Source of the DNA: Aquimarina rhabdastrellae
GTDB taxonomy: Bacteria; Bacteroidota; Bacteroidia; Flavobacteriales; Flavobacteriaceae
Assembly (NCBI GenBank): GCA_947387485.1
Contig: CANDNT010000002.1
Location: forward strand, 496,001-560,000
Direction: 5' to 3'
DNA: 64,000 bases
Shown: one piece after another, positions 24,966 through 61,376 of the stretch
Layout: each line of letters begins with the position of its first letter
How positions within the stretch are numbered: position 1 is the stretch's first letter
Notes under the pieces: model-generated
The model's input: only the letters and a program-made list of their open reading frames with translations
Told to the model about the DNA's origin: nothing
The model's database searches: none
Program-made: the position numbers and the translations under genes

Positions 24966-25487
24966 ATGAATTGTAGTATCGGTTGGCACGTGCTATATGT
25001 AAAGTCACGTTGCGAAAAAAAAGTATTAGAGTCTTTAAAAGAGAAATCATTAGAAGGTTTTCTACCTTTAGTGAAGACGGTAAGGAAATGGAGTGACCGT
25101 AAAAAGATTGTCCATAAACCATTATTTCCATCTTATGTATTTGTTAATGTAAATTCTTCATTAGAATTTCATAAAGCATTATCTGTTTCTGGAGCCTGTG
25201 CATATATTCGTTTTGGTAGAGAATATGCCAAGGTAACAGAAAGTGAAATAAATCGAATTAAATTTTTGGTAGGTAGTCAAGATATAACAGATATCGAAAC
25301 CAATTCAGAATTACCAAAAGTAGGAGAAACAAAAACTATCTTATGCGGTGCATTAACTGGACTCGAATGCGAAGTACTTAATGTGAATAATGCAAATAAA
25401 ATTATAGTTAGAATAAATTCTCTTCAACAAAATATTACAGCAACCCTTCCATCATATTATTTTGAGGAAACTCTTATGGCTGTATAA
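24966..25487 (+). CDS. UpxY/NusG-like transcription antiterminator
   Basis: This 173-aa NusG paralogue has the N-terminal NGN domain (about 5-105: WHVLYVKSRCEKKV, then RKWSDRKKIVHKPLFPSYVFV) and a KOW-like C-terminal domain (about 120-173). In Bacteroidota these UpxY-type factors bind their own leader RNA/DNA and let polymerase read through long operons, usually for capsule or natural-product synthesis. No glycosyltransferase or synthase genes follow, only a phosphopantetheinyl transferase 101 bp downstream, so it may be an orphan or serve a target elsewhere. The long structured leader upstream fits autoregulation. Confidence 0.85.
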   Translation: MNCSIGWHVLYVKSRCEKKVLESLKEKSLEGFLPLVKTVRKWSDRKKIVHKPLFPSYVFVNVNSSLEFHKALSVSGACAYIRFGREYAKVTESEINRIKFLVGSQDITDIETNSELPKVGETKTILCGALTGLECEVLNVNNANKIIVRINSLQQNITATLPSYYFEETLMAV

Positions 25488-25588
25488 ACATTTCTTTTAT
25501 CTCATACAACGTGACTTCTAAATTTCATGTAATAACTTTTCTTCAATTTGAAAAATAATAGTATATAAGTACTATTAAAAGTTGTATA

Positions 25589-26230
25589 GTGATTTATATT
25601 TTTTACTGCAAAATAGCTCAAGATCAACATGAGTTGCTCTTAAAAACCTTTTTACCACAATTTTCGATAGCATTTCAAGAAAAAATAATGAAATATCGAA
25701 GATGGCAAGATGCGCAATTGTCATTATTAGGGAGAGTTTTGCTTAAAAAAGGATTAAATCAAATAGGAAAACAATATGACGAAAGTAAATTAAAAGTTAC
25801 AGCCTATAATAAACCTTATTTTGAGAATGATGATTTAGAATTTAATATATCTCATTCTGGAGAAATAGTTGTTTGTGCAATAAGCAAAAATGGAGCAATA
25901 GGTATTGATATAGAAGAATGTAATAATATAGATATACATGATTTTAAATCTCAAATGACCAGTAATGAATGGAATACAATAAATCAATCAAAAGATATTG
26001 TAAGAGCGTTTTATAAGTATTGGACAGAGAAAGAAGCTGTAATAAAGGCACATGGTAATGGACTATCCATTCCATTAAAATCTTTTGAAGTAAATAATGC
26101 CCATACTAAGATAGTCCATGAGGATTTTTGGTTAAAAAAAATAGATATCGAAAGTAACTATTATTGTACGATATCCTTTAAAGAGAGGGATATTGAAATA
26201 AATGAAATAGAAGAAAAACTTTTTTTATAA
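25589..26230 (+). CDS. 4'-phosphopantetheinyl transferase, Sfp-type
   Basis: This 213-aa enzyme transfers 4'-phosphopantetheine from CoA to a Ser of carrier proteins in fatty acid, polyketide or nonribosomal peptide synthesis. The ACPS superfamily signature is present: ISHSG (87-91), GIDIEE with metal ligands D107 and E109, and YWTEKEAVIKAHG (144-156). The start is GTG 25589, because no in-frame ATG gives a complete N-terminal strand. It sits between an orphan UpxY factor and a GH3 gene. No carrier protein or synthase is in the window, so it may serve an unlinked pathway such as polyene-type pigments of flavobacteria (inference). Confidence 0.88.
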   Translation: MIYIFYCKIAQDQHELLLKTFLPQFSIAFQEKIMKYRRWQDAQLSLLGRVLLKKGLNQIGKQYDESKLKVTAYNKPYFENDDLEFNISHSGEIVVCAISKNGAIGIDIEECNNIDIHDFKSQMTSNEWNTINQSKDIVRAFYKYWTEKEAVIKAHGNGLSIPLKSFEVNNAHTKIVHEDFWLKKIDIESNYYCTISFKERDIEINEIEEKLFL

Positions 26231-27651: not shown

Positions 27652-27805
27652 GAAAAAATTTAACTTCTAAGTATAAAATCGTTCTTTGTGATAGAAAAAC
27701 TACTTATCTAAATAAACGAATAAGAAATATTTTAAAAAAGTGATCAATATTAAATAGTTATTATCAAAAATAACTTGAATTATAAGAGGTATAAAATTAA
27801 TGGCA

Positions 27806-27845
27806 CACCAATAAGCGTTTTAAACGCTTATTGGTGTTTTTTTAT
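27806..27845 (+). terminator. Strong terminator after GH3
   Basis: A perfect 12-bp stem CACCAATAAGCG / CGCTTATTGGTG with a TTTTAAA loop and a T9 tract on the right. It also lies just beyond the minus-strand peptide gene, but its T-tract serves the plus strand. Confidence 0.9.
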
Positions 27846-27857
27846 ATATTATTCAGT

Positions 27858-28016
27858 TTATCCTGGAAAGTTTGAACATCCACCAGGTAAATGACAACAC
27901 CAGTCTGTTGAAGGATCTGCACTAAGTGTACATTCATTAATAGTAAAACCTCCTTGAATGTTTTTTTGTTGTTGTTTAGTGATTACTTGACCGAAATTTG
28001 AAATGTTTTTTAACAT
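27858..28016 (-). CDS. Double-glycine-leader, Cys-rich precursor peptide
   Basis: This is a 52-aa peptide gene too short for usual ORF callers. Residues 1-23 form a leader with polar, Gln/Lys-rich helical character and end in IQGG (20-23), the recognition and cleavage type of C39 peptidases and of Bacteroidota natural-product precursors. The core (24-52) starts with FTINEC and contains four Cys (C29, C40, C41, C47), a Trp, two Pro and several Ser/Thr, so disulfides or thioether cross-links are possible. It lies 234 bp downstream of the TPR-CHAT gene on the same strand, with an A-rich leader before its ATG. No transporter or modification enzyme is nearby. A bacteriocin-like or signalling role is inferred from the leader only. 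Confidence 0.65.
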   Translation of the reverse strand: MLKNISNFGQVITKQQQKNIQGGFTINECTLSADPSTDWCCHLPGGCSNFPG

Positions 28017-28250
28017 AATTTTTATGAATTTTTATAGAATTATTAATGGATGTTTAAAGACTCCCATTGTTAAGTCTGTTCTTCGCGAAAGAATATTTTT
28101 ACTTAAATAGTTACTATATAATGAAAATCGAAATGTGTAAATGAGATTACTTATTTGAAGTAATCTAGAGTATAAAAAATGGTATGAGATTGAGTTTTTT
28201 AACATATTAGACTAACGATTTTACATAGTGTGTCAATCGCAGTTTTCCTG
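28017..28250. other. Region between the peptide gene and the CHAT gene
   Basis: 234 bp. It contains an inverted repeat AGATTACTT / AAGTAATCT (28144-28166), a near-palindrome TTCTTCGCGAAAGAA (28079-28093) and a copy of the two-part motif AATCGC-n8-TGTTACCCT (28235-28257). No TAnnTTTG promoter for the peptide was found on the minus strand. Confidence 0.45.
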
Positions 28251-28257
28251 TTACCCT
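28235..28257. promoter_or_regulatory. Two-part motif, copy 1 (upstream of the peptide gene)
   Basis: AATCGC (28235-28240), 8 bp, TGTTACCCT (28249-28257). It overlaps the stop codon of the CHAT gene. A second copy lies at 31411-31431. On the minus strand it reads AGGGTAACA ... GCGATT, with an AAC like many ECF -35 elements. Confidence 0.4.
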
Positions 28258-30989
28258 AAAAAGAATATTTTTTTTCTAAAAATAAATAGTAGTAGTAATA
28301 TTAAAACAAAAAGTATTGATATGTAGGCGTTTGTAAGAGGCGAGGAAGAGGTGTGAATTTTATCGTGTTGCCCTATCAAAACAAAAGAAGCCCAATAATA
28401 TGGTGAAGCTTCAGATAAAGAATGAGTTTTTAAATAATTGATTTTAGCCTCATGCAAAGAAGATACTCTAGATTTTCCAAGTTTTAGATTAGCATAAAAA
28501 TCGGTCATTAAAGCTGCTGTTGTTTTATCATTAACATCCCATAAAGATGCAATAACAGCATTAGTTCCTGAATAGAAAAAACCTCTAACCAAATTAAAAA
28601 TACCTTCGCCGTTAATCGTAGTGCCAAGAGAAGAGTTACAGGCACTTAATACTACTAACTCTGCTTGATTGGGGATAGTATAAAGATCCTGTAAATTTAG
28701 TTTTGTATCATAAAAAGCAATCCATGGATTTTGAGAAACATTAGCATGAGTCGCTAGATGTATGATCCTAGCATTGTTACTATTGTTTCTGAAGTTCACC
28801 GATGTACTTTGATCTTGAAGAAACGTTTGACCAGTAAAGATTTTTTGTATAGTAGAAACTTCGTCTCTAGACGAAGATAAAGAAGTTAGATTATCATACT
28901 TGAAAATTTCTGGAGCAAACCCTATAAAATCATTTGTTGGGACCCTATTTAATGTTGCATTATGTCTTAGAAAAGACATCGAATAAGCATAACTTACCAT
29001 AGATTCTTTAATGAGATAATGCTCAGAAATAGGCTGTGTAAGTAAAGACTCAAAAGGAATGCTTTGCAAATAACCATCAGGAATTATAGTAAGATGATTG
29101 TTAAGAATCTTTGATCGTATTTGATCTGGAAATAATAGTGTATAAAGTTGATAAGAAATATGGGTAAACATATCAATATCAGATTGCGTTTCAAAAGGAG
29201 CAGAAATCAATCGATGATATTGTGCTATAAGTTGTTCAATCTCCTTAATTTCGGGAATTTCAAATAGAACAGTCTCTTTAGAAGTTACTAAAATACCATA
29301 CAAAGCATTAAACGAAGTAGGGTTTTTATCGATATTCCAGATGTAAGAAAGAACAACATTGTTATTAGCTAACTGTGATTGAATATCATCTAGAGAAAAC
29401 AACGTACTTTTTGATTTATATTTAAAATACTCAGGAAAAGATAATTGTAAAGAATCATTAAATTGACGATAGGTCAATTTAAGGTCAAATAATTCATTAG
29501 TAAAATGCTCTTTTACAGTAGTATTTTTTTCTTTGTTAATTTGATTCTCTAAACGAAGGATTTTATGTTTTAACTGTTGTTCTTTAAATAGCAATGGGGA
29601 TGGTAATTTGGCTTTTTCTGCATTTTCAAGAATACTTTGCGTTAATAATACTGCTTTGTTTTTTTCAATAAAGTAAAATGCAAGACCAGGATTATTCATA
29701 AGTTGGGCACATAGTGTCGCTTTGCTATAAATAGAAGGGGCTTTACTTTGCCAAAACAATTTTGATTGCTCATCACTACTTTCACTCAATAGCATATCAA
29801 TTAGATAATCTGCAACTTTAAGATGATGTAACGCTTTTTTTATAAACGAAATATTATGTTGCTGTTGATATAACTTTATGAGTGCTGTGGTTTTAATATT
29901 TAGTGAAAATAATGTCGAAAATTTATCATCAAACTTAAAAAGTTGTTGCTCAGAAAGAGGCTTAGTAACCAATGAATCTAAAGAAGTGTTTAATGATAAA
30001 GAACGTTCTGTATGCTGTAATGTTTTTAAAAATTGTTTCTTTAAAAGATAATATTCTGCTATAAAATTATGCGTTTTAGCTTTAAGCGATTTTGATGGAC
30101 TATAAGCTAAACTCTTTTCTAAAAAAGATAACGCGCTATCATTTTTAATTTCATTATAAAGATTTCCTAAGTTGCTATATGCTATAGAAATAGCGCTAGA
30201 ATCTTTATGGGCTAAAGCAATATTTAGATATTTGAATTGATATGCTTTGGATTTTTTAAAATCAAAGGTTTCTGGATTATTGTAATACGAGGCAAATGCA
30301 TTGTATAAACTGTAATAATCATATCGGCTCAATGATATTTTTTCAGAAAGTAATAAGGCTCTATTAAGAATGTTAATCTTAGATTGGAGGGCTTCATGAG
30401 TATTAATACGCTCATAGACATTGGCTAGATTTAAATACCTGTTAAATAACCATTTGGGTTTGTTTAAATGTTCTAAAATAAAAGTGCTTTTTTGATAATA
30501 ATGAATAGCTTTATAATAATCACTTAAAGAAACATAATGTGCTCCAATTGCAGCATATGATAAAGCCGTTTTAGGGAGGTTAGCTTCAGAATTTAAATCA
30601 ATTATTTTTTGATAATACTTTTGTGCATTATCGTGAGAGCGAAGTTTAGAATATGATTTAGCAATATTGTATAAAGCATCGATATATTTTTTATCGACGA
30701 GTTTAATTTTATTGTAGATGTCAATTTCGATTAAAGCATAATGAATAGCTTTAGTATAAGCTTTCTTTTTATAAAGATGTACAGCATGATTATGAGCTAT
30801 ATCTATTGCTGCTAGATATTCATTTTGTTTTATAGAAGAAGTTATAAGACTATCAACGGCGACAGTATTAAGTAATTTTGATTGTTGAGGTAGAAAAGAA
30901 GAAGTGTTAAAATAAATTTGGCTATACATAAGGTTAGTACAACACAATATATATAGCCAAATAGGTAAAATTAATTTTATTAATGTCAT
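28251..30989 (-). CDS. Periplasmic TPR-CHAT (caspase-like) protease
   Basis: This 912-aa protein has a signal peptide (to about MYSQ, residue 24). About ten TPR-type helical repeats fill 50-430, and a linker with coiled-coil tendency (about 470-520) follows. The C-terminal CHAT domain (about 600-870) has the catalytic dyad His748 (HLATHAN) and Cys784 (VLSACNSS). A TM helix (about 888-907) and a basic tail end the protein. The catalytic domain should therefore face the periplasm. CHAT is related to caspases and separase, and TPR-CHAT proteins often act as stimulus-activated proteases. It overlaps the upstream lipoprotein stop by 4 bp (ATGA). A divergent sigma/anti-sigma pair lies next to this unit. 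Confidence 0.85.
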   Translation of the reverse strand: MTLIKLILPIWLYILCCTNLMYSQIYFNTSSFLPQQSKLLNTVAVDSLITSSIKQNEYLAAIDIAHNHAVHLYKKKAYTKAIHYALIEIDIYNKIKLVDKKYIDALYNIAKSYSKLRSHDNAQKYYQKIIDLNSEANLPKTALSYAAIGAHYVSLSDYYKAIHYYQKSTFILEHLNKPKWLFNRYLNLANVYERINTHEALQSKINILNRALLLSEKISLSRYDYYSLYNAFASYYNNPETFDFKKSKAYQFKYLNIALAHKDSSAISIAYSNLGNLYNEIKNDSALSFLEKSLAYSPSKSLKAKTHNFIAEYYLLKKQFLKTLQHTERSLSLNTSLDSLVTKPLSEQQLFKFDDKFSTLFSLNIKTTALIKLYQQQHNISFIKKALHHLKVADYLIDMLLSESSDEQSKLFWQSKAPSIYSKATLCAQLMNNPGLAFYFIEKNKAVLLTQSILENAEKAKLPSPLLFKEQQLKHKILRLENQINKEKNTTVKEHFTNELFDLKLTYRQFNDSLQLSFPEYFKYKSKSTLFSLDDIQSQLANNNVVLSYIWNIDKNPTSFNALYGILVTSKETVLFEIPEIKEIEQLIAQYHRLISAPFETQSDIDMFTHISYQLYTLLFPDQIRSKILNNHLTIIPDGYLQSIPFESLLTQPISEHYLIKESMVSYAYSMSFLRHNATLNRVPTNDFIGFAPEIFKYDNLTSLSSSRDEVSTIQKIFTGQTFLQDQSTSVNFRNNSNNARIIHLATHANVSQNPWIAFYDTKLNLQDLYTIPNQAELVVLSACNSSLGTTINGEGIFNLVRGFFYSGTNAVIASLWDVNDKTTAALMTDFYANLKLGKSRVSSLHEAKINYLKTHSLSEASPYYWASFVLIGQHDKIHTSSSPLTNAYISILFVLILLLLFIFRKKIFFLG

Positions 30990-31369
30990 AATGATCTACA
31001 AGTAGCACCTTGGACGAATCTTTCTACATCATCGTCTTCTTCTTCTGGATCAATCGGAATATCTGTATCTTTTTGAGGCATTACAGACCAGGTTTCAAAA
31101 TCTGGATAACGATCCTCATCACATATTTCCCAAAAGACTAAGAAGTTTAAATTAATATAACGATCTCGTATTCTTTGTTTTTCCTGTTCGCTTAATCCAT
31201 TACGATATTGTACCAGTAAAACTTCATAAGAAGAATGCCTGTTTTTTTGTTGTAATTCAGTTTCTAATGATACAAGTTCTTGATCAATAGAAGCCTCATT
31301 ATCACAACTTATCGACAAAATTAAACATGCTGTAAAAATAAGGGGTTTTAAAAATTTAAAGGTATTCAT
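30986..31369 (-). CDS. Small lipoprotein upstream of the CHAT protease
   Basis: This is a 127-aa lipoprotein with Cys22 (LSISC). The mature part is charged, with helical QLVSLETELQQKNR (about 30-43) and SEQEKQRIRDRYIN (59-72). An Asp/Glu-rich stretch and a C-terminal Cys (ATCRS) end it. No known family is recognised. Its TGA overlaps the CHAT start codon, so it is translationally coupled to the protease and a likely partner, inhibitor or sensor of it. No TAnnTTTG box lies upstream on its strand; the two-part motif at 31411-31431 is 42 bp from its ATG. Confidence 0.7.
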   Translation of the reverse strand: MNTFKFLKPLIFTACLILSISCDNEASIDQELVSLETELQQKNRHSSYEVLLVQYRNGLSEQEKQRIRDRYINLNFLVFWEICDEDRYPDFETWSVMPQKDTDIPIDPEEEDDDVERFVQGATCRSL

Positions 31370-31410
31370 AAAGCTGTTTTTTAATATAAATTAAGTGTAA
31401 AAGCGTTCAT

Positions 31411-31431
31411 AATCGCCAATTTTGTTACCCT
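31411..31431. promoter_or_regulatory. Two-part motif, copy 2 (divergent region)
   Basis: AATCGC (31411-31416), 6 bp, TGTTACCCT (31423-31431). It overlaps the TTTG -33 element of the divergent sigma gene promoter, so a protein bound here could control both directions. Confidence 0.4.
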
Positions 31432-31454
31432 GTGAAGATAAAAAGTTACTTTTG
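31421..31454 (+). promoter_or_regulatory. Promoter of the sigma/anti-sigma operon
   Basis: TTTG (31421-31424) and TACTTTTG (31447-31454) are 22 bp apart, within the range of Bacteroidota -33/-7 promoters. The start codon is 21 bp downstream. Confidence 0.65.
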
Positions 31455-31475
31455 TAAATAGAATAATACAAGTAA

Positions 31476-32039
31476 ATGAAAGACAACTCCTATTACTTAG
31501 AAGCTCTAATAAATCGAGATTCAAGAAAGATTAAAAAATTGTATGAAGAGTGTTTTCCTAAAGTTGAGCGGTTTCTTTTGATGAATAAAGGAACTTCTTA
31601 TGATGCTGAAGATATTTTTCAGAAAGCTTTATTGCAAATTACAGTAAGATATCAAAAAGAAAGATTTGTGATTAAAAGTAGTTTTGAAGGATATCTCTTT
31701 ACAGTATGTAGGAATTTATGGCGTAGAGAATTGAATGCCAATAAAAAATGGGTAACAGATAATGAGGTTATAGCACTTAATGAAGAAGAGTTTGATCTTG
31801 CAACGGCTTTGGTAGAGCAAAAACGTTGGGAATTATTTGCAGAGGCATTAGAGGTGATTTCAGAAAATTGTAAGAAAGTTTTAAAAATGTTCTTTAATCG
31901 AATTCCCTATGCTAGAATGGTAGAAGAATTAGGATATAATTCAGAAACAGTAGCAAGACAAAGAGTGTTTAAATGTAAAGCCAAATTAACACAACTAATC
32001 AAAAAAGATAAACGATACGAATCGTTAAAAGAACTATGA
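31476..32039 (+). CDS. ECF-type RNA polymerase sigma factor
   Basis: This 187-aa sigma-70 family protein has region 2 at about 20-95 (YDAEDIFQKALLQI, then FEGYLFTVCRNLWRREL). Its region 4 (about 120-180) has an HTH with MVEELGYNSETVARQRVFKCKAKL. It overlaps the next gene by 4 bp (ATGA), which encodes a one-TM TPR protein. This is the usual layout of a sigma and its anti-sigma. It is divergent from the lipoprotein/CHAT unit across 106 bp, which makes those genes plausible targets. Its own promoter looks housekeeping-type. Confidence 0.88.
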   Translation: MKDNSYYLEALINRDSRKIKKLYEECFPKVERFLLMNKGTSYDAEDIFQKALLQITVRYQKERFVIKSSFEGYLFTVCRNLWRRELNANKKWVTDNEVIALNEEEFDLATALVEQKRWELFAEALEVISENCKKVLKMFFNRIPYARMVEELGYNSETVARQRVFKCKAKLTQLIKKDKRYESLKEL

Positions 32040-32830
32040 GTGTAGAGGATGATATTTTAATAGAAAGATTTTTAAATGGTACGCTAACAGAAGAAGAAAA
32101 GAATACTGTTTTAAACCGAATGGCAATTGATGAAGCGTTTAAAGAGAAGGTACTTTTTGAAAAAGAACTTTTAGAAACATTAAATGAAGAAAAATGGAAT
32201 AGTGCCAAAGACTCAGATTTGAACGAGATTAAAGCGTATGCTAAAAAATTTCAAGGAGAAGATGTAATTGCTTTAAAAAGGGTTTTAAAAGATGTAAATG
32301 AAGAATATCAGACATCTCGTAAAAAAGGAAATAATATACGATATCTATATGCAGCAATAATTGTTACATTCATAATCATAGGAGCATTGATGACGCAACA
32401 ATTAAACAGTAGCTCTCCTCAAGAATTATACGTAGAATATTTAGACCTAAAAGAATTACCGTCCTTAGTATCTAGAGGAAGTGAAAGTGATTTAACAAAA
32501 GGACAACAACAATTTGAAGCTGGGGCATATGAAAGTGCATTAATTTTATTACAAAAAGCAATGCAAACACAAACACAACAAAAAGGAATAATATATACTT
32601 ATATAGGAATTTCTCAACTAGAACTAAAACAATACGATGAAGCTGAGAAAACATTTGATCAATTAAGCGCAAGTAATCTTATAGATGCATCTAAAGGGTA
32701 TTGGTATAACGCCTTAGTCTATTTAAAGCAAGAAAAATTAGAAAAGACAAAAGACGCATTACAAAATATTGTTAAGAAAAAATTATATAATCACAAAAAA
32801 GCCAGTCAGCTACTTAAAGCATTAGAATAA
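32036..32830 (+). CDS. One-TM TPR protein, putative anti-sigma factor
   Basis: This is a 264-aa inner-membrane protein. The cytoplasmic part (1-100) has an ILIERFLNGTLTEEEKNTVL stretch at 7-26, like zinc-free anti-sigma N-termini of Bacteroidota. A TM helix lies at about 103-119. The periplasmic part has two or three TPRs (about 150-260: GQQQFEAGAYESALILLQKA, QLELKQYDEAEKTFDQL). It is co-translated with the sigma gene. The TPR half may contact the periplasmic TPR-CHAT protease, which could cleave or sense it. That is an inference from shared repeat type and location. A terminator follows. Confidence 0.75.
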   Translation: MSVEDDILIERFLNGTLTEEEKNTVLNRMAIDEAFKEKVLFEKELLETLNEEKWNSAKDSDLNEIKAYAKKFQGEDVIALKRVLKDVNEEYQTSRKKGNNIRYLYAAIIVTFIIIGALMTQQLNSSSPQELYVEYLDLKELPSLVSRGSESDLTKGQQQFEAGAYESALILLQKAMQTQTQQKGIIYTYIGISQLELKQYDEAEKTFDQLSASNLIDASKGYWYNALVYLKQEKLEKTKDALQNIVKKKLYNHKKASQLLKALE

Positions 32831-33163
32831 TAGCAAGAGCCTATGTGATTTACATAGGCTTTTTTTATGAATAGAATTGAACAAAAGGCTTAAAATAAAA
32901 GTTGGACAAAGAATTATAAAGTAGTAAATTTATATAACTGTGTAGTTTATTAATGTATAGGGTTTTATGAGTGGTTTTTAACTACCATAATTGATGATAG
33001 AGAAATTAAACAAACAGTTTCTTCTCTAATTGAAATAATAGTAAGATATCAAAAGCATTTCCTTAATGAGTAGGATACTATAGTATGTAAACTAATTGGT
33101 TACATATATAAAGTTATGCTTTTTAGTAAGGCTAAAATTTTAACTTTCAAATACCTAATCAAA
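32831..33163. other. Intergenic region before the G8-domain gene
   Basis: 333 bp with a terminator at the left end (32838-32867). The rest is AT-rich with no TAnnTTTG box or clear RNA seen. The ATG at 33116 is in frame with the next gene but was not chosen. Confidence 0.45.
32838..32867 (+). terminator. Terminator after the TPR anti-sigma gene
   Basis: AGCCTATGT pairs with ACATAGGCT around GATTT, followed by T7. It is nearly identical to the terminator at 37781-37808. Confidence 0.9.
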
Positions 33164-36100
33164 ATGAAAATCAAACTATTTATTTTAATGGTCTTTTTGA
33201 CAGATCTGACCTTTTCTAATATCCCCATTCTTAAAAATAATGGGTTATTAAGTTATAATGGAAATGAAACACAAGAAGAGATTATTCTTGAATTGATACA
33301 AGAGCAACAACTTCTTAAACTTACTGTATTAAGTGACAACAATCAGACATATAATACAACTTATGATATTAATGCTGTTAAGCAATTTCGCTTTGTTAAT
33401 AAACAGCATATGGATGTGATCACTATAGACGAAGAATTGTCGATTCCTACAGAGACGATACACTATGATGATCGCATAGGAAACATTAGAGAAATGGAGG
33501 CAATGCTCAATTTAGTAACCTATATTGATGTAACGCACAAAACTGTCAATAATGGGTTTTGGGATGATCCTAATACATGGGGAAATGGATTAGTTCCAGC
33601 TACAGGAGCAAGAGTATTGATTGCAAAAGAACATACAGTAACGATAAGGCAAGATGAAAAAAATGCGTTTAAAACAGTAAGAGTTGATGGTGTTTTAAAG
33701 TTTGATGAAGATAAACATACAGTGTTTAGAGTCAATACTATGGTAGTTGATATGGGTGGACACTTGATTATAGGAAATAAAACACATCCTATAGCAGAAA
33801 ATGCATCAGCTAGAATTATTTTTTCTAAGCTTACAGATTTTGAAATAAATAATCAAGAAAGTCCAGATTATGATCCACATCGCTTAGGGTTAGGGTTAAT
33901 TAGTCATGGTGTAACTTCGATATATGGGACACGAAAAACAGGATTTACAACCTGTAATGAAATAACAGCAGGAGCATCTTTCGTGGTCGTAGATAAGTTA
34001 CCTCAAGATTGGAATGTAGGAGACAAGATAGCAATTGCAGGTGTAACATATGATGGTAAGGGAGATGAATCAAGGCTTATCGCTAGTTTAAATTATGCGA
34101 GTAATACTATTACTTTTGATAAACCCTTAGAAAAAGAACATAAAACCTTAATCCATACCAAAGCAGATTTACAATTAAAAATACACATCATCAATTTAAC
34201 CAGAAATGTGACATTTGAAACCTCAGATAAATTGAGTCAACGTACTATTAAAAAAGGAATTGACTTTAATGGGAGAGGGCATATCATGTTTATGCATACA
34301 AATGATGCAGCTATACATTATGTAGCATTTAAACATTTAGGGCGTACCGATAAGCAAAATAAAATGATTGGGGTTAAATATGATGAGAATGGTAATATAG
34401 AGGCTCCAGCATTTAACCCTGTAGCGCGATATCCAGTTCATTTTCATAGAGCAGGAAGTCAAAATCCAGGAATTGTAGAGGGGTGTGCAGTAGAAGATTC
34501 TCCAGGATGGGGATATGTCAACCATTCTTCATATGTTCATATAAAAAACAATGTGTTATATAATGTAAGAGGAGCAGGTTTTGTTTCAGAAGCAGGAAAT
34601 GAAAAAGGAAGTTTTATCAATAATATAGCAATAAGAACGATCGGTAATGGAAGAGAAAACTTAACTGCCTCTTCAAAATTCACAGCAAATTTTCAACGTA
34701 ACATCAATAATTTTGGATCAGCAGGAGATGGTTTTTGGTTTCATTCATCAGATCTAGAAATAGATAATAATGTAGCATCAGGTTTTACCGGAAGCGGAAT
34801 GCATATATGGGATCAAGGTATAGATGGGGTAGACCATAAATCAAATGGATTACTCACTGCATTTCATATAAATAATACAACTTCATATGGAGGTCATACA
34901 GCTTTAAATATATCTTTTGTAGAAGCTCCAATTCATACAGGAATAGATGCAAGACATATGATTAAGAATGTTTTAGGTTGGAATGTTAGTAGAGGAATAC
35001 GACGTAAATATTCTAAACATATCAATTTTGTAAATACAACTTTATTGAATGATATTAATAAGCCGTACGGAGATGCGACAAGTACGCATAGCAATGGAAG
35101 GCATAACCTTTTTTTCAATCCATATATAGAAGGGTTTGTAAGAGGAATGGATTTTGAACATAGAGAAGAAACCGCAGGTGTTTATGGAGGATATATCAAT
35201 ACTGCGGTGAATTGTTATATTAATATTAGACATTCAAGATCTCAAAATGTAATTTATAAAGATATAAGCTTTGGTACGTTAACACCAGAAGCTTTGGCTA
35301 CCATTGATACAAGTTCGCTAGGTTTTGATGGTAATCAATATAATTATTTAGGATTTCTAGCAGTACCAGGTAAAGTTGATGAAGGTTTTGTTGATCCAGA
35401 ACCCCAAACCAAAGATGGTAAATTGTCTCAAATGTATATTGTAAATGGAACATCAATTAAAAGAGCATTATTAAAAGAACAACAACATCCAGATTATATT
35501 CCGTGGACAAATCAAAGCGATCCTATAGCTTGGCAAAACCAGACAAACAGACAATTATTTGAATCTTTAAATCCAGAAGCTCAAAAAGGAGTGGTTTCAG
35601 GAGAATTTTATGAACTTAATGAAGTAGAAGAACCTAATAGTTCTCGATATAAAGGAATTAAATTAAAAGGAGCTTCTAATGAAGAACTACCTTACCTTCC
35701 TGTGCTAATTGATTCTATTCAAGATATTGAAATTCCTAAAGGAGAAAGCTTAAGTTTTAACCTTTCAGAAGTTTTTATTAATCCTAATATACAGCATTTT
35801 GTGAATTCAGTTAGCAATAACACCATACCTATGAATGTGAGTACAACGATTAATAATAATATACTAACAATACAAGGTTTAAAAGAAGGAGCCTCAGTAA
35901 TTACATTACAATCATATTCAGATGTTTTTCAAAAGACGTTAAATAATACATTTAAAGTAACGGTGACAAAAGAGGTTGAAGCACCTTTTGTAGAAGAAGA
36001 TAATGTGATAACAGCATATAATACACCGATTTTAATAGATGTGTTAGCAAACGATTCAGCATCTATTACAGCAATAGTAGGGGTTACTGAAGCATTAAAT

Positions 36101-37753
36101 GGAACCTTAGAAATTGTATCAGGAAATAAATTAAAGTATACACCACATGCAGATTTTTCGGGAAATGATGAGGGAATATATACTGTTGAAAATCAATTTG
36201 GAGGAGAAAATACAGCTAAAGTAACTATAGTAGTTAAGCCTATGGTTTATGATTTTGAAATTGAAGTATTAGAAGGAACAACTATTACATATGATTTAGA
36301 GCATTCTATAGACATGACGACAATGGCTAATTATGGAGATGTAGTAATAAAAGAAAATACAAAATTAGAATATACACAGTCAAATGATCAACATGAAGGA
36401 TTAGACCAATTTACGTATACAATTAACGGAGAAACAGGTGTAGTAAATGTAAATATCATTAAAGTAAATCAATCAGACTCGCAAGAAGTTGAACTTTTAG
36501 GAGATGGATTTGAATCCGATGATTTATTGACAGAAGGGTGGGAACATATACAAGATACAGGAAGTTTAGTTGACATAAAAGGACATCATTCATTTGCCTA
36601 TTCTGGAGATCACAGTTTAAGAGTTCGAAAAAAAGGAAAAGTAGAGAATGCCGTGTCGACAAAAGGATATAAAAACATAAAAGTTTCTTTTGCTAGAAAA
36701 ACAGATGAAGGTTGGAATCTTTATGAACAAGGTGCAATAAGATATCAATGGACTGTTGATCAAACTAATTGGAATGTTTTTCATACAGATAATAGTTATC
36801 ATGAAAATTATGAGGTTTTTGATTATAAATTACCAGAAGAAGCATCGGATAACGAAAATTTTATTTTTGGAATTCATGCTGATGCAAAAAAAAACGCACA
36901 ACGTTCTTATATAGATATTGTAAGAGTCACAGGAATGCCAATTGATTCTAATGATTCAAGAAAACCTATCATGTACATAGAAAATAACATGAATGGGCAT
37001 TTAAATTTAAACTTTGCTAGTTGTGATAGCGAGTACAAAACCATAGCTATTCAAAATATAGGTACAAAACCTTTGTTATTAAACAATATAGATATGAATT
37101 TAAATGAAGGATTTGAACTGATAAATCATCAATTAACAAAAACGATATTACCTGGAGCGTTTTTTAATTTAGAAATTAAAAGTAATCCTAACGCTATACA
37201 TAATACTGGAGTGCTAACTTTTGATACTAATGATATAAATCAATCATCAATGACTATAGTATTTAATAATATCATGTCATTAGCTATTGAACAAAATGAA
37301 AATATACTATCAACAGCAAAGATAATAGGTGCAAATTATCAATGGTATCAATTGATCAACGGAGAGCCAATAGCTATTAATGGAGCAAATAGTAATGTAT
37401 TAGCAATAACAGCGTCAGGAGAATATATAGTGAAAGCGATTTTTGAAAATGGTTGTGAGATAAATTCAGATGAAACAATGGCTTTATTTGAAGAGCTTTC
37501 AAAAAACACAATGAGGAATAAGAATTTTAATATTTTTCCTAACCCTACATATTCAAATGTAACGATTATGACTAAAAAAGAATCAATACAGAGTATTGAA
37601 CTTTATGATTTATACGGAAAAAAAATATGGAGTAAAGATCATATAAATCAAACAAGAATGGTTCTTCCGTTAAATCAACAACAAAAAGGACTGTATTTCT
37701 TGAAAATGAATACAGCTAGTCAAACCTATGTAAAGAAAGTTATAAAACTATAA
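33164..37753 (+). CDS. Giant G8-domain, parallel beta-helix T9SS surface protein
   Basis: This is a secreted protein of 1529 aa with a signal peptide (about 1-18). A G8 domain lies at about 130-250 (NGFWDDPNTWGNGLVPATG, VRVDGVLKFDED, VDMGGHLIIGN). A right-handed beta-helix region spans about 370-700 (e.g. GCAVEDSPGWGYVNHSSYVH). Ig/cadherin-like modules follow at about 830-1080 (VLANDSASITAIVGV) and a jelly-roll-like part near 1110-1240. A type A T9SS sorting domain (FPNPTYSN, then KGLYFLKMN) ends it. The G8 plus beta-helix order resembles CEMIP/TMEM2, linked to hyaluronan breakdown, so a polysaccharide-degrading or adhesive role is possible but unproven. ATG 33164 gives the best signal peptide. 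Confidence 0.85.
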   Translation: MKIKLFILMVFLTDLTFSNIPILKNNGLLSYNGNETQEEIILELIQEQQLLKLTVLSDNNQTYNTTYDINAVKQFRFVNKQHMDVITIDEELSIPTETIHYDDRIGNIREMEAMLNLVTYIDVTHKTVNNGFWDDPNTWGNGLVPATGARVLIAKEHTVTIRQDEKNAFKTVRVDGVLKFDEDKHTVFRVNTMVVDMGGHLIIGNKTHPIAENASARIIFSKLTDFEINNQESPDYDPHRLGLGLISHGVTSIYGTRKTGFTTCNEITAGASFVVVDKLPQDWNVGDKIAIAGVTYDGKGDESRLIASLNYASNTITFDKPLEKEHKTLIHTKADLQLKIHIINLTRNVTFETSDKLSQRTIKKGIDFNGRGHIMFMHTNDAAIHYVAFKHLGRTDKQNKMIGVKYDENGNIEAPAFNPVARYPVHFHRAGSQNPGIVEGCAVEDSPGWGYVNHSSYVHIKNNVLYNVRGAGFVSEAGNEKGSFINNIAIRTIGNGRENLTASSKFTANFQRNINNFGSAGDGFWFHSSDLEIDNNVASGFTGSGMHIWDQGIDGVDHKSNGLLTAFHINNTTSYGGHTALNISFVEAPIHTGIDARHMIKNVLGWNVSRGIRRKYSKHINFVNTTLLNDINKPYGDATSTHSNGRHNLFFNPYIEGFVRGMDFEHREETAGVYGGYINTAVNCYINIRHSRSQNVIYKDISFGTLTPEALATIDTSSLGFDGNQYNYLGFLAVPGKVDEGFVDPEPQTKDGKLSQMYIVNGTSIKRALLKEQQHPDYIPWTNQSDPIAWQNQTNRQLFESLNPEAQKGVVSGEFYELNEVEEPNSSRYKGIKLKGASNEELPYLPVLIDSIQDIEIPKGESLSFNLSEVFINPNIQHFVNSVSNNTIPMNVSTTINNNILTIQGLKEGASVITLQSYSDVFQKTLNNTFKVTVTKEVEAPFVEEDNVITAYNTPILIDVLANDSASITAIVGVTEALNGTLEIVSGNKLKYTPHADFSGNDEGIYTVENQFGGENTAKVTIVVKPMVYDFEIEVLEGTTITYDLEHSIDMTTMANYGDVVIKENTKLEYTQSNDQHEGLDQFTYTINGETGVVNVNIIKVNQSDSQEVELLGDGFESDDLLTEGWEHIQDTGSLVDIKGHHSFAYSGDHSLRVRKKGKVENAVSTKGYKNIKVSFARKTDEGWNLYEQGAIRYQWTVDQTNWNVFHTDNSYHENYEVFDYKLPEEASDNENFIFGIHADAKKNAQRSYIDIVRVTGMPIDSNDSRKPIMYIENNMNGHLNLNFASCDSEYKTIAIQNIGTKPLLLNNIDMNLNEGFELINHQLTKTILPGAFFNLEIKSNPNAIHNTGVLTFDTNDINQSSMTIVFNNIMSLAIEQNENILSTAKIIGANYQWYQLINGEPIAINGANSNVLAITASGEYIVKAIFENGCEINSDETMALFEELSKNTMRNKNFNIFPNPTYSNVTIMTKKESIQSIELYDLYGKKIWSKDHINQTRMVLPLNQQQKGLYFLKMNTASQTYVKKVIKL

Positions 37754-56674: not shown

Positions 56675-58447
56675 ATGATCAAAAAACAATGTATTAAAGG
56701 TATAGTAATGGCTATACTATTAACAAGTGTTATTGCTTGTGAGAGAGAAGAAGTAACACAAGAAACAGTTACAGAAACAAGTATAAGTAAAAATGTACAA
56801 TTAGAAATAGCATCAAAGGATAAGAGTATAATAGCTATTCAATATGTTTCAAAATCAATAGGCAAGGAAATCACAAAAGATCAAGAAGGCAATCCATCTT
56901 TTTTAGAAACAACATTTGGTATTGTAGAATTATCTAATGTAATAGAAAGTAAATTTCCGCAGGGAGGAATCTCTTATACATTTCCTTTACAGCCATATGA
57001 GCCTGAAGGAAATACTTTATATAACTTAATAGTAAGTATAAATAAAGAAGGAGAACAATCTAGTGCAGTGATGCGTTATGAGATGACTCCAGAATTTGCA
57101 GACAAATACTATAGAGGCATAAAACCTATAAAGAACTTTTCGGGAAAAATACAACGTTACGAATTGGACTTTGTTTTACAAAGAAATAATGATTTAGCAC
57201 CTTGTCTAGAAGAGTTAATAGAAGACTTAGAAGATACTAATAATGACCCAGATGATAATATTTCTGGTGGAGGATCTAATGGAGATGTGATAAATGGAGG
57301 CGGAATAGATGCTGGAGAAGATACTGCAGGAGATGGAGGGTTTGCTAATTGTGTTATTCATGTAGAAGTAGAATGCCCATCAACAGATAGGCCTATACCA
57401 CCTAGATTTGATAAGGGAGGATGTGAAGTGGTTACTTATGTGATTAATTGTGTAAATAATGATTCAAAATCTGGAAATAGAAACTTATGCGAAGAGACAG
57501 ATGAGGTGATTGTAATTAATCCATTAAATGCAATAACTGCTATCAGGTTAAATTTACAGATACGTACAGGAACTCCAGAAGAACAATGGTTATCTAATCC
57601 AGATAATTATGAAGAAGCAATCGAATTATATATTATAGGAGAAACAAATAATTGGAATACGGCTTCAAAAGAGCAAATAAACGAACTTATAGATTTTGAA
57701 TCTACATACGAGAATATAGATGTAGAAATAGAGGATGTATGTCAAAAATTAATTGTGACTAGAGCTTATAAAAATAACTCAGTAATTTCTGATGCTATTT
57801 TAAGAGCATTTGATAGAGAAAATGATACAGGATATAATATCAAATACAGAATAGTTAATCTTCCTGTAGACAGTAATGGAGAATCACCTAATGCAGGAAC
57901 CTCTTCCTTTCCGTTATGTATTGATGGAGCCTGTGAAATAGAAGTAGCCATCGATAGAAATTATATTAATACCGCAACAGATATCTCTATAGCCAGAACC
58001 ATAATACATGAAAGTATACATGCGGTATTATTGTATTTATTACATTCTGGTGAAATAAATTTAGAATCTGGAGATATAGGTACAGAAGCTCTTTATAGAG
58101 AGTATTTTGTATATTTAATTAGATTACAAGATCCTTTAGCAGAAGAGGGAACTCCTCAATTTGATGCAGAACAACATCGTTATATGGTACGTTTAATAAA
58201 TGAGATAGCTGAAGCTTTAGCTGCATATGGAGAAGAAACAGGTAATGATTTTTCACAAGAATTATATGACCAATTGAGTTGGGGAGAATTAACGAGTCTG
58301 CCTCATTTTAATGCAGAAGTCCCAGAAGTGAGTGAAAGAAACAAAATTAAAGCAGTAATTTTAGCAGAGGCAAAAAACCAAGCACAAAATATAAATGGAC
58401 AAACAGCAAGCCCACAAGGACAACCATCTTCATCATCTTGTAATTAA
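56675..58447 (+). CDS. Lipoprotein with HExxH metalloprotease-like motif
   Basis: This is a 590-aa lipoprotein (Cys22, SVIAC). Residues 35-175 look like a beta-rich domain. A Cys- and Gly-rich linker (about 185-265, with several Gly-Gly-Gly-Asp stretches) follows. A C-terminal domain contains TIIHESIHAVLLYLLHSG (H445, E446, H449), a zincin-type helix without a clear third ligand; a Glu/His further on in TEALYREYF could serve. I do not recognise a named family. The last 53 bp overlap the start of the first array lipoprotein in another frame. The C-terminus (SSSSCN) is encoded by the same DNA that gives HLHHLVIK in the array genes, so the end of this gene may have been altered by recombination. 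Confidence 0.65.
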   Translation: MIKKQCIKGIVMAILLTSVIACEREEVTQETVTETSISKNVQLEIASKDKSIIAIQYVSKSIGKEITKDQEGNPSFLETTFGIVELSNVIESKFPQGGISYTFPLQPYEPEGNTLYNLIVSINKEGEQSSAVMRYEMTPEFADKYYRGIKPIKNFSGKIQRYELDFVLQRNNDLAPCLEELIEDLEDTNNDPDDNISGGGSNGDVINGGGIDAGEDTAGDGGFANCVIHVEVECPSTDRPIPPRFDKGGCEVVTYVINCVNNDSKSGNRNLCEETDEVIVINPLNAITAIRLNLQIRTGTPEEQWLSNPDNYEEAIELYIIGETNNWNTASKEQINELIDFESTYENIDVEIEDVCQKLIVTRAYKNNSVISDAILRAFDRENDTGYNIKYRIVNLPVDSNGESPNAGTSSFPLCIDGACEIEVAIDRNYINTATDISIARTIIHESIHAVLLYLLHSGEINLESGDIGTEALYREYFVYLIRLQDPLAEEGTPQFDAEQHRYMVRLINEIAEALAAYGEETGNDFSQELYDQLSWGELTSLPHFNAEVPEVSERNKIKAVILAEAKNQAQNINGQTASPQGQPSSSSCN

Positions 58448-58964
58448 GATAGTACTAGTGTTATTGATAGGAGGAATATTGCAATCATGTAAATCTTATG
58501 TTCAATACAGGCCTACAAAAAAAGATCAAAGGAAGATTATGGGAAATTGGTTGACAACTAGGAAAAAAATAGCAAAAGCACATGATCAAGAAGATACATT
58601 GTATATAGCTTTAATTCATCACGATAGTATTCAGTACTATTTAGAACATAGAAGAAGGTTTCCAACAACAATAGAAGAAAAAGATTCGTTGTTTTTTTAT
58701 GATAATTTTTTTAATAAGACCTTGATACCATATAAAAAGTACAATCCAAGCAAGAAAAAAGAGAAGAAAAAAGGTATTGTTATTGTAGATAAAGAAGAGT
58801 TTTTTTCTAACGAAAAAGTCAATAAAATAACATATCCGTTATTTAGTCAAGATGGTAAAACAGCTATTTTATATGGTTCAGGAATTAGAGGGATGTCTGC
58901 TATAAGGAGTTATAGAAAGAAAAACAAAAAATGGATTTCTGAAAAGATTTTCATTTTTTATTAA
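58395..58964 (+). CDS. Array lipoprotein A1
   Basis: This 189-aa lipoprotein (Cys32, GGILQSC) is the first of six tandem paralogues. Shared features are a signal peptide, then CKSY, KKDQ and NWLT after the lipobox, and a C-terminal YPLFSQDGK-AILYGS motif. The A subtype has HDSIQYYLEHRRRFPTTIEE and a Lys-rich KKYNPSKKKEKKKG stretch. The start at 58395 overlaps the preceding gene by 53 bp. The signal peptide has an unusual N-terminal (DNHLHHLVIK) part that the B2 copy shares. The function is unknown. An immunity-like or surface role is only a guess from tandem duplication. Confidence 0.75.
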   Translation: MDKQQAHKDNHLHHLVIKIVLVLLIGGILQSCKSYVQYRPTKKDQRKIMGNWLTTRKKIAKAHDQEDTLYIALIHHDSIQYYLEHRRRFPTTIEEKDSLFFYDNFFNKTLIPYKKYNPSKKKEKKKGIVIVDKEEFFSNEKVNKITYPLFSQDGKTAILYGSGIRGMSAIRSYRKKNKKWISEKIFIFY

Positions 58965-59012
58965 AAAAACAAAAACAGTTTAATGATGTAGTGGTTTAAG
59001 AGAGAGTAAGAT

Positions 59013-59534
59013 ATGATCAAATATCATAAAGTAGCTTCTTTTTTATTTATAGCAATCCCAGTGTTATTGATAGGAGGAATATTGCAATCATGTAAATCTT
59101 ATGATAATTATAGACCAACGAAAAAGGATCAAAAAGCAATAATTGAAAATTGGTTGACAATAAGAAAGAAGGTTTCTGAAACACATGGGAGAAATAATGT
59201 TTTGTCTATATATATGATAAATAGCGATAAAATTAAGTATCTATTAGAGAGTAGAAAAAAATATCCCGTAAAACTTAAAAAAGAAGACTCACTATATTTT
59301 TATGAGCATTTTTTTAAGAATCCAATTGCTATTCGTAGAACTGGTAAACGTAAAAAAAGAGAAATTAAAATAGATGGGAAAAAAATAGATAGCATGTCAT
59401 ATCCTTTATTTAGTCAAGATGGAAAAGAAGCTATTTTATATAGTTCGATGGTGTCAGGCGTGTCAACAATAGCTATACTTAGAAAGGACGATAATAAGAA
59501 ATGGAAAATAAAAAATATCTTTTCTTTTTTTTAG
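59013..59534 (+). CDS. Array lipoprotein B1
   Basis: This 173-aa lipoprotein (Cys27, GGILQSC) is of subtype B: after the lipobox YDNYRPTKKDQKAIIENWLT, and near the end DSMSYPLFSQDGKEAILY. The middle part (about 60-115) differs from subtype A and from the other B copies, and it is shorter than in A. It lies 48 bp after A1. ATG 59013 gives a well-formed signal peptide. The function is unknown. Confidence 0.75.
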   Translation: MIKYHKVASFLFIAIPVLLIGGILQSCKSYDNYRPTKKDQKAIIENWLTIRKKVSETHGRNNVLSIYMINSDKIKYLLESRKKYPVKLKKEDSLYFYEHFFKNPIAIRRTGKRKKREIKIDGKKIDSMSYPLFSQDGKEAILYSSMVSGVSTIAILRKDDNKKWKIKNIFSFF

Positions 59535-59538
59535 AAAA

Positions 59539-60111
59539 ATGATTGAATTACACAGTAAGAAAAACCATCTTCATCATCTTGTAATTAAGATATTGCTAGT
59601 GTTATTGATAGTAGGAATATTACAATCATGTAAATCTTATGATAATTATAGACCAACGAAAAAGGATCAAAAAGCAATAATTGAAAATTGGTTGACAATA
59701 AGAAAGAAGGTATCTAAAAATCATGAACGAAATGATACTTTATATATGACTTTTATAACCAATGATAAAATTAGATATATTTTGGAGCAAAGAAAAAGAG
59801 TACCAGGAAGATTATCTAAAGATGATTCTTTACGGTTTTATAATCACTTTTTTAATAATTCAATGAATACTAACGATCACTATAGAGTTCGAAGAAATAA
59901 GAGAAAGAGACAAGGAATTGTGGTTTTAGAAGAAAAAGAAATAATATCAAATAAAAAAATAGATAGCATGTCATATCCTTTATTTAGTAAAGACGGAAAA
60001 GAAGCTATTTTATATGGTAGTACAGTTACTAAAACCATATCCCAAATAGCAATATTTAAAAAAAGAGAAGATGGCAAATGGATAATGGTAGATGTTTTTC
60101 CATTTTATTAA
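59539..60111 (+). CDS. Array lipoprotein B2
   Basis: This is a 190-aa lipoprotein (Cys31, VGILQSC). The first half after the lipobox is nearly identical to B1. The middle has its own KDDSLRFYNHFFNNSMN segment, and the end is DSMSYPLFSKDGKEAILYGS with EDGKWIMVDVFPFY shared with B3. The N-terminus (NHLHHLVIK) matches A1 rather than B1, so this copy is a mosaic. It starts 4 bp after B1. Confidence 0.75.
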   Translation: MIELHSKKNHLHHLVIKILLVLLIVGILQSCKSYDNYRPTKKDQKAIIENWLTIRKKVSKNHERNDTLYMTFITNDKIRYILEQRKRVPGRLSKDDSLRFYNHFFNNSMNTNDHYRVRRNKRKRQGIVVLEEKEIISNKKIDSMSYPLFSKDGKEAILYGSTVTKTISQIAIFKKREDGKWIMVDVFPFY

Positions 60112-60161
60112 TAATGCAGAAAATATGATTTATGATATTTTATATTAAGAAAAAATATAAA

Positions 60162-60725
60162 ATGATCAAGCATTATAATGTGGATTCTTTTTTATTTAAA
60201 GCAATATTAGTGTTATTAGCAGGAGGAATATTGCAATCATGTAAATCTTATGATAAATATCAACCAACTAGAAAAGATCAAAAGGAAATTATGAAAAATT
60301 GGTTGACAACTAGGAAAAAAGTTGCAAAAGCACATGATCAAGAAGATACATTGTATATAGCTTTAATTCATCACGATAGTATTCAGTACTATTTAGAATA
60401 TAGAAGAAGGTTTCCAACAACAATAGAAGAAAAAGATTCGTTGTTTTTTTATGATAATTTTTTTAATAAAACCTTGATACCATATAAAAAGTACAATCCA
60501 AGCAAGAAAAAGGAAAAGAAAAAAGGTGTTGTGATTATAAGGGAAAAAGAGTTTTTTTTTAATAAGAATGCCAATAAGGTATCATATCCGTTGTTTAGTC
60601 AAGATGGTAAAAAAGCTATTTTATATGGTTCAGGAATTAGAAATGGAGCTCATATAATGATTTATAAAAGAGAGTGCAAGAAATGGATTACGGAAAGAGT
60701 TTTTACTTTTTTATTAAAAAAGTAA
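60162..60725 (+). CDS. Array lipoprotein A2
   Basis: This is a 187-aa lipoprotein (Cys27, GGILQSC). It is very close to A1 over the centre (HDSIQYYLEYRRRFPTTIEE, KKYNPSKKKEKKKG), but with a different region after KKG and a different C-terminus. I start at ATG 60162 because the 5' end then aligns with A3 and B1 (MIK...). The upstream ATG at 60132 is in a repeated spacer and adds a Lys/Tyr-rich extension. Confidence 0.75.
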   Translation: MIKHYNVDSFLFKAILVLLAGGILQSCKSYDKYQPTRKDQKEIMKNWLTTRKKVAKAHDQEDTLYIALIHHDSIQYYLEYRRRFPTTIEEKDSLFFYDNFFNKTLIPYKKYNPSKKKEKKKGVVIIREKEFFFNKNANKVSYPLFSQDGKKAILYGSGIRNGAHIMIYKRECKKWITERVFTFLLKK

Positions 60726-60765
60726 AAACAGTTTAATGATGTAGCGAATTAAGAGAGAGTAAGAT

Positions 60766-61326: not shown

Positions 61327-61376
61327 TAATTTTGGAAAGGTGATATATGGTATTTTATGTTAAGAAAAAATATAAA

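Follow-up and report, generated by a model that had tools for sequence, protein, structure and literature searches.

Related systems and layout of the locus

DdvA of Myxococcus xanthus (PDB 8rot, 8rw5) combines a sigma-binding part, a transmembrane (TM) segment and a tetratricopeptide repeat (TPR)-CHAT region in one chain, and to our knowledge the TPR-CHAT protein Csx29 lacks a C-terminal TM segment. In Craspase of type III-E CRISPR (Csx29, Csx30 and CASP-sigma), the TPR-CHAT protein is coupled to an inhibitor of sigma, and sigma motifs occur inside the locus itself (accessible text of PMC10028731); for DdvS, control of an anti-phage island has been reported in Myxococcus (accessible text of PMC12288465). 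The DNA analysed here, a stretch of 64,000 nucleotides from Aquimarina rhabdastrellae (contig CANDNT010000002.1, positions 496,001–560,000, hereafter the window), contains a locus of similar lines, in which genes for an extracytoplasmic function (ECF)-like sigma factor and a one-TM TPR protein stand divergently to genes for a lipoprotein, a TPR-CHAT protease and a Cys-rich peptide with a double-glycine (GG) leader. It is proposed, with a probability of roughly 55%, that the locus is a self-contained envelope-signalling module with exchangeable exported cargo. Such a module would unite, in one repeated genetic unit of marine Flavobacteriaceae, a caspase-fold protease with sigma/anti-sigma control and with exported Cys-rich peptides of diverse kinds, the exchangeable cargo being carried behind a second copy of a promoter-like motif. 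The features of the locus are as follows.

27805–27837, plus strand: strong terminator-like palindromic stem and T run between the GH3 and peptide genes, possibly bidirectional
27858–28016, minus strand: GG-leader Cys-rich peptide gene (52 aa, leader end IQGG, four core Cys)
28038–28094, minus strand: H-type pseudoknot RNA leader (covariation; model match E 3e-10)
28231–28256, minus strand: promoter-like motif GGGTAACA-N13-TGACA before the peptide gene, with the CHAT stop codon inside the motif
28251–30989, minus strand: TPR-CHAT protease gene (912 aa; signal peptide, C-terminal TM, H748/C784)
30986–31369, minus strand: lipoprotein gene (127 aa; predicted stand-alone subtilisin-type prodomain)
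31405–31430, minus strand: promoter-like motif GGGTAACA-N13-TGAAC before the lipoprotein-CHAT unit
31447–31454, plus strand: TAnnTTTG box, 29 nt upstream of the sigma gene (flavobacterial housekeeping type)
31476–32039, plus strand: ECF-like sigma factor gene (Pfam Sigma70_r2, TIGR02937)
32036–32830, plus strand: gene for a one-TM protein with a TPR C-terminus, putative anti-sigma (Pfam TPR, TM-like stretch)

The five open reading frames (ORFs) had been placed at these coordinates by a first-pass annotation of the same DNA and were confirmed by the ORF list and by Pfam and NCBIfam domains. Two overlaps of 4 bp each were also found, one joining the lipoprotein gene to the CHAT start and the other joining the sigma gene to the TPR gene.

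For comparison, 80 regions were fetched from a longer listing (58 with a closer-type CHAT gene, the window's own and 21 more distant), and a further 77 loci came from the best 80 of 330 related-locus matches, which gave 157 distinct CHAT proteins after removal of exact duplicates. The counted set comprises the 135 closer-type CHAT proteins (E < 1e-70), the window's included, with the 22 more distant ones excluded. Twenty stretches of 20 kb (400 kb), all from Aquimarina genomes, served as controls.

The module recurs as a repeated gene set in Aquimarina and relatives. A divergent sigma gene lies beside 126/135 closer-type CHAT genes and is accompanied by a one-TM TPR gene in 121/135 (109/120 without later tandem CHAT copies), so that the co-occurrence of the five genes in relatives, put forward earlier as a check, was found as a recurring module. 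Nine CHAT genes have no sigma gene beside them; two of these are later tandem copies and two start less than 400 nt from the end of the locus. Five closer-type CHAT genes, the window's included, were found in the window's genome, and up to 15 CHAT matches in one Aquimarina genome among the matches listed. In loci L107:3827–15477, L203 and L135, as many as four CHAT genes stand in tandem behind one sigma/TPR pair.

The CHAT domain of the window protein was identified with Pfam PF12770 (177 bits against a cut-off of 24, E 7e-52). The signal peptide, C-terminal TM and H748/C784 dyad read previously from the sequence all stood, with both dyad residues conserved in 135/135 aligned CHAT proteins. 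A C-terminal TM-like stretch is likewise present in 135/135 and an N-terminal hydrophobic stretch in 127/135, and the CHAT domain is predicted to face the periplasm, held by its C-terminal helix. The predicted structure (mean predicted local distance difference test score 86) best matched the Craspase TPR-CHAT protein, then separase, and also the transmembrane anti-sigma DdvA; the aligned parts were long, with high root-mean-square deviations of 7–15 Å, which is to be expected where TPR solenoids bend.

Craspase is activated by Cas7-11 and RNA, with a TPR-CHAT protein that is not known to have a signal peptide or membrane anchor, whereas here the CHAT protein has a signal peptide and a TM segment, a TM-TPR protein would serve as anti-sigma, and a prodomain lipoprotein and peptides are added. 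In contrast to the single chain of DdvA, the putative anti-sigma and the TPR-CHAT protein are encoded by separate genes in the window, with cargo attached. The module is thus regarded as a variant, not a member, of either system: similar in its lines, but periplasmic and provided with a prodomain lipoprotein and exported cargo. No description of the module was found in the literature searched, which leaves most subscription journals outside its coverage, and the accessible parts of PMC8939145 and PMC7247131 contain nothing on it. The remark in the first-pass annotation that no described system with this exact set was known is correct only in part, Craspase and DdvA being functional relatives.

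The likeness to these systems raises the question of an envelope or phage defence sensor, in which an activated TPR-CHAT protein would free the sigma factor and the cargo would consist of interchangeable effectors. This is considered unlikely, as PADLOC yielded only a TPR-repeat model (E 1e-6) for the CHAT protein and, for the TPR protein, a weak match to a 2TM effector (E 0.006), the CHAT domain is predicted to face the periplasm, and the cargo includes plain lipoproteins and exporters.

The window sigma factor was matched by the TIGR02937 sigma70-ECF model over positions 19–173 (53.9 bits against a cut-off of 42.9). The TPR protein is a membrane protein encoded with its sigma factor, which is a feature of anti-sigma factors, and a TM-like stretch is present in 127/129 of its distinct relatives. 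A comparison with PDB sequences gave weak TPR matches only.

The lipoprotein, its S8 counterpart and the promoter-like motif

Judging from its sequence, the lipoprotein is a stand-alone subtilisin-type (I9-like) prodomain. A prodomain hidden Markov model (HMM) built without short-form seeds matched it with an E value of 0.0022 among 16,493 ORFs, a search space drawn entirely from CHAT regions. Thirty-six of the 37 short ORFs matched by this model sit no more than 300 nt before a CHAT gene, and the iterated model recovers 72/91 short lipoproteins before CHAT. An orphan family had been considered, as Pfam and NCBIfam gave nothing usable, but was set aside with the match to the prodomain HMM. Foldseek with the model of the lipoprotein gave no match under E 0.001, and the fold match to POIA1-type propeptides is not specific. 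Unlike the stand-alone subtilisin propeptide inhibitors of that type (I9), the lipoprotein here is lipid-anchored and paired with a caspase-fold cysteine protease.

In one CHAT clade the place of the lipoprotein is taken by an S8 protease. The S8 loci form a nested clade together with one non-S8 locus (L232) in an outgroup-rooted CHAT tree (path supports 57–99), and only two changes between the S8 and non-S8 states were counted on this tree. An ancestral S8 protease that was subsequently lost was also considered; with the S8 clade nested, a gain of S8 would be no less probable.

Both promoter-like sites of the window share GGGTAACA-N13-TGA, one being upstream of the lipoprotein gene and the other at the CHAT stop before the peptide gene. 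The full pattern was derived from these two sites and their counterparts in the related genome G008. It has three matches in the 5-Mb genome of the window, namely the two window sites and C4:77035, and the reversed pattern has none. Within the 64-kb window, three copies of the bare 8-mer were counted where 0.93 would be expected, the additional one being located in the sigma gene, and the motif claim therefore rests on conservation and not on the window alone. The stretch between sigma and lipoprotein genes was obtained from 102/135 loci, and the motif was counted in the 95 stretches shorter than 400 nt. GGGTAACA was present in the CHAT direction in 49/95 of these and in the reverse direction in 0/95, with 0.12 expected from the controls. 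At S8 loci it was found before the S8-CHAT genes in 10/20 sigma-side stretches. Within −80 to +150 of the CHAT stop, it was detected in 63/110 non-S8 loci versus 1/25 S8 loci. A standard sigma-70 promoter was examined as a candidate and rejected, its counts matching those of shuffles (32 vs 31.5).

This conservation suggests that the GGGTAACA motif would be the promoter of the module's own sigma factor. The earlier proposal that the sigma factor induces the lipoprotein/CHAT/peptide unit gains support in so far as the same motif precedes both units, as expected with one sigma. A different box, TAnnTTTG, was found in the sigma direction in 43/87 stretches with 8.4 expected; it corresponds to the housekeeping promoter type reported for flavobacteria (accessible text of PMC9723704). 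With these boxes in the sigma direction, it is probable that the sigma pair is not driven by its own GGGTAACA motif.

The cargo behind the CHAT gene

GG peptides were counted at the 130/135 CHAT loci with at least 2.5 kb downstream, 105 without and 25 with S8, and leaders were searched for with an HMM built from 23 leaders behind CHAT genes. Within 2.5 kb behind CHAT, GG-leader peptides were found in 44/105 non-S8 loci (71 peptides) versus 0/25 S8 loci, and none in the 20 control stretches. The Fisher p of 1e-5 for this difference overstates the independent evidence, because S8 and non-S8 loci are separated by only two state changes. The first-pass annotation had made its proposal depend on the occurrence of the peptide beside CHAT genes of relatives, and the 44 loci bear it out.

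On the CHAT tree, the presence of GG peptides changes at least 25 times, versus twice for S8, and the cargo therefore turns over fast. In other loci, non-GG cargo and export genes occupy the same slot behind CHAT. Both observations would also be expected if mobile GG peptides had inserted behind CHAT genes by chance, with the motif alone being shared. Such hitch-hiking is judged to be quite improbable, given the absence of GG peptides from 400 kb of control, the presence of a promoter-like site around the CHAT stop in 63/110 loci and the conservation of the 5′ leader with G008, where a peptide 67% identical to that of the window was found.

All fetched regions together gave 147 distinct GG peptides, whose cores have a mean of 5.1 Cys with an even Cys count in 127/147, and whose leaders contain one Cys in all. 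Cys makes up 11.8% of the cores compared with 0.74% of ORFs longer than 300 aa. With regard to export, a C39-like-VKOR(-thioredoxin) gene lies within 2.5 kb behind CHAT in 22/105 non-S8 loci (domains of three checked). Within 10 kb, a peptidase-containing ABC transporter (PCAT) gene was found in 22/105 and an HlyD gene in 14/105, with C39-like-VKOR (2.5 kb) and PCAT (10 kb) occurring together in 15/105. It should also be noted that in L092:4876–6468, L186:12604–14214 and L266:7577–9175 a C39-like domain is fused to VKOR and thioredoxin beside GG peptides or PCAT; this fusion resembles a disulfide-forming enzyme which would be guided by GG leaders.

In the genome of the window, a single C39 exporter gene was found at C4:247191 (739-aa frame, read as PCAT from its sequence) next to an HlyD-like gene, along with three genes for C39-like-VKOR proteins and several GG islands apart from CHAT. 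This makes export of the window peptide in trans by the C39 exporter plausible, and both features of PCAT substrates, a double-glycine leader and a C39 exporter in the genome, are present. The processing of the peptide leader by CHAT, as suggested in the first-pass annotation, is unsupported, since the GG site fits C39 exporters and, with such a gene in the genome, a role of CHAT as GG-leader peptidase is not needed. The locus has the GG leader, the Cys-rich core and a C39 exporter, in the genome or, in relatives, in cis, in common with GG-leader peptides of the class II bacteriocin/microcin type and their C39 PCAT exporters, and differs from these in its sigma control, its pseudoknot leader and the linked TPR-CHAT protein and prodomain lipoprotein.

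This likeness would suit a bacteriocin-type competition cassette, in which the peptides would be antibacterial and the lipoprotein and CHAT protein would shield the producing cell or complete the maturation of the peptide in the periplasm, in the way that lantibiotics are finished by NisP and further extracellular proteases. The GG leaders and mostly even Cys counts, the PCAT/HlyD genes in cis in some relatives and the diversified, tandem peptides all agree with such a cassette, and there is a precedent for a first cleavage by a C39-type transporter with a later one by an extracellular protease (accessible text of PMC10885120). A cassette of this kind is nevertheless held to be rather unlikely: S8-partnered CHAT genes are without peptides (0/25), peptides also occur without CHAT, and none of five scanned peptides reaches an NCBIfam bacteriocin or lanthipeptide cut-off. 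For the window peptide, the bacteriocin-like model NF047798 (leader_Chryseo) gave 11.9 bits, below its cut-off of 23.5.

The pseudoknot leader and the proposed mechanism

Many of the peptides are preceded by a stretch resembling TTCTYTCGCGAAGAATAGACAC-loop-GAGTGTCTTTAAATGTTCA. It has the topology of an H-type pseudoknot, with helix P2 joining the loop of helix P1 to the 3′ tail. In the window, P1 pairs AGACT (28077–28073) with AGTCT (28062–28058) and P2 pairs AATGG (28068–28064) with CCATT (28049–28045). From 147 upstream stretches, 68 fitted the pattern and 64 distinct ones were kept, with one odd sequence (L095:10657) omitted to leave 63. As the selection pattern used P1, only P2 provides an unbiased test; it is 91.5% paired, and five of its six pairs show changes on both sides. 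The covariation score of P1 and P2 was 0.334 compared with 0.147 ± 0.010 for shuffled and at most 0.117 for slid alignments. In 91 distinct rows found by the model, where the alignment is fitted to the structure, P2 was 94.4% paired with a score of 0.574 versus 0.241. A covarying pseudoknot approximately 20–30 nt before the start codon is thus supported by the alignments.

Two model matches below E 0.01 were found in the window's genome, both behind CHAT (3e-10 in the window and 3e-12 for a C4 paralog), with the next at 0.11; the best E value in the 400 kb of controls was 0.068. Among 132 distinct pseudoknot contexts, a script located a GG peptide 15–29 nt later in 100. Manual reading of the remainder placed 20 before peptides of 52–90 aa, eight before lipoprotein-like proteins of 171–439 aa, two before PCAT and two without an ORF in the allowed range, so that small exported-type peptides follow the pseudoknot in 120/132 contexts. 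It lies within 3 kb behind CHAT in 54/105 non-S8 loci and 0/25 S8 loci; one S8 locus (L215) has a copy elsewhere than behind CHAT. At E 0.01, the model matched at least once in every one of 18 chosen Aquimarina genomes, in several of them away from the listed CHAT genes, and with stricter filters 4/148 genomes of a phylum-wide sample, the window's own included, were positive, all from the same family. Restriction of the pseudoknot to CHAT loci holds in the window's genome but fails in other Aquimarina genomes. Assignment to a known RNA was also rejected, as Rfam 15 gave no match at gathering score for either of the copies searched, that of the window and the top scorer, in L199. Of the 22 more distant CHAT proteins, five (L148, L158, L159, L160 and L161; about 1050 aa) are encoded about 1.6 kb upstream of a GG peptide that has the same pseudoknot.

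Because the distance to the start codon is close and nearly fixed, translational control by the pseudoknot is suggested, and exported-peptide genes of Flavobacteriaceae may have it as a general leader. Besides the peptides at CHAT loci, it precedes GG islands located elsewhere as well as some lipoprotein and PCAT genes (contexts including L082:9386–9441 and L199:7951–8007; genome matches G027:C31:10536–10592 and G020:C1:2323743–2323799), and it offers a handle for genome-wide searches for such peptide genes. In many copies a palindromic TTCTYTCGCGAAGAA lies directly 5′ of the pseudoknot (28079–28094 on the minus strand of the window; L093:4723–4779, L186:14260–14316). CGCGAAGAA was present in 21/147 upstream stretches. 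The palindrome, which is absent before some later tandem peptides, is a candidate operator or extra hairpin.

For the envelope-signalling module, the following course can be proposed. The housekeeping sigma factor would make the ECF sigma factor and the membrane-bound TPR anti-sigma, which would restrain it until an envelope signal sensed by the periplasmic TPR part releases it. Going by motif conservation, the sigma factor would then recognise GGGTAACA-N13-TGAAC and transcribe the prodomain lipoprotein and CHAT genes as well as the cargo behind CHAT, the translation of which would be gated by the pseudoknot. The single C39 exporter, with the HlyD-like protein encoded next to it, would cleave the peptide at GG and export it in trans, and a C39-like-VKOR-thioredoxin protein would form the disulfides of the peptide. 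The lipid-anchored prodomain would be the most likely partner of CHAT, whether as substrate, inhibitor or activator, and by analogy with Craspase CHAT may act back on the anti-sigma. All CHAT substrates, like sigma-anti-sigma binding and disulfide formation, are what we infer from the gene set.

Several observations weigh against this proposal. The exact GGGTAACA is missing from 46/95 intergenic stretches, 47/110 non-S8 loci have no motif near the CHAT stop, and TAnnTTTG boxes were also found in the CHAT direction (23/87 stretches). On the window sigma factor Pfam gives sigma region 2 only, and no database model confirms the anti-sigma, the best NCBIfam antisigma match being 12.7 bits against a cut-off of 100. 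No GG peptide was detected within 2.5 kb in 61/105 non-S8 loci. Both GG peptides and the pseudoknot also occur far from CHAT genes and are hence independent of CHAT, and in the window's genome no pseudoknot was detected, at the threshold applied, before the GG islands that lie apart from CHAT.

Beyond the first-pass annotation, the analysis adds the subtilisin-type prodomain lipoprotein, the S8 variant, the exchangeable cargo and the RNA pseudoknot, and it gives testable partners for periplasmic CHAT proteases, namely the prodomain, the anti-sigma and the peptide.

The terminator-like stem at 27805–27837 has 15 bp and is one of four terminator-like sites in the region, with 1.1 expected. On its other side, the module adjoins a gene for a 1545-aa secreted protein (33116–37753) with G8, CEMIP beta-helix, immunoglobulin-like and Por secretion-tail parts. 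Elsewhere in the window, a NusG-like gene followed by a phosphopantetheinyl transferase look-alike was read from the translations at 24966–26230 without a family search, and six tandem lipoprotein-like genes with similar sequences (173–197 aa) at 58395–61931 probably represent a duplication array.
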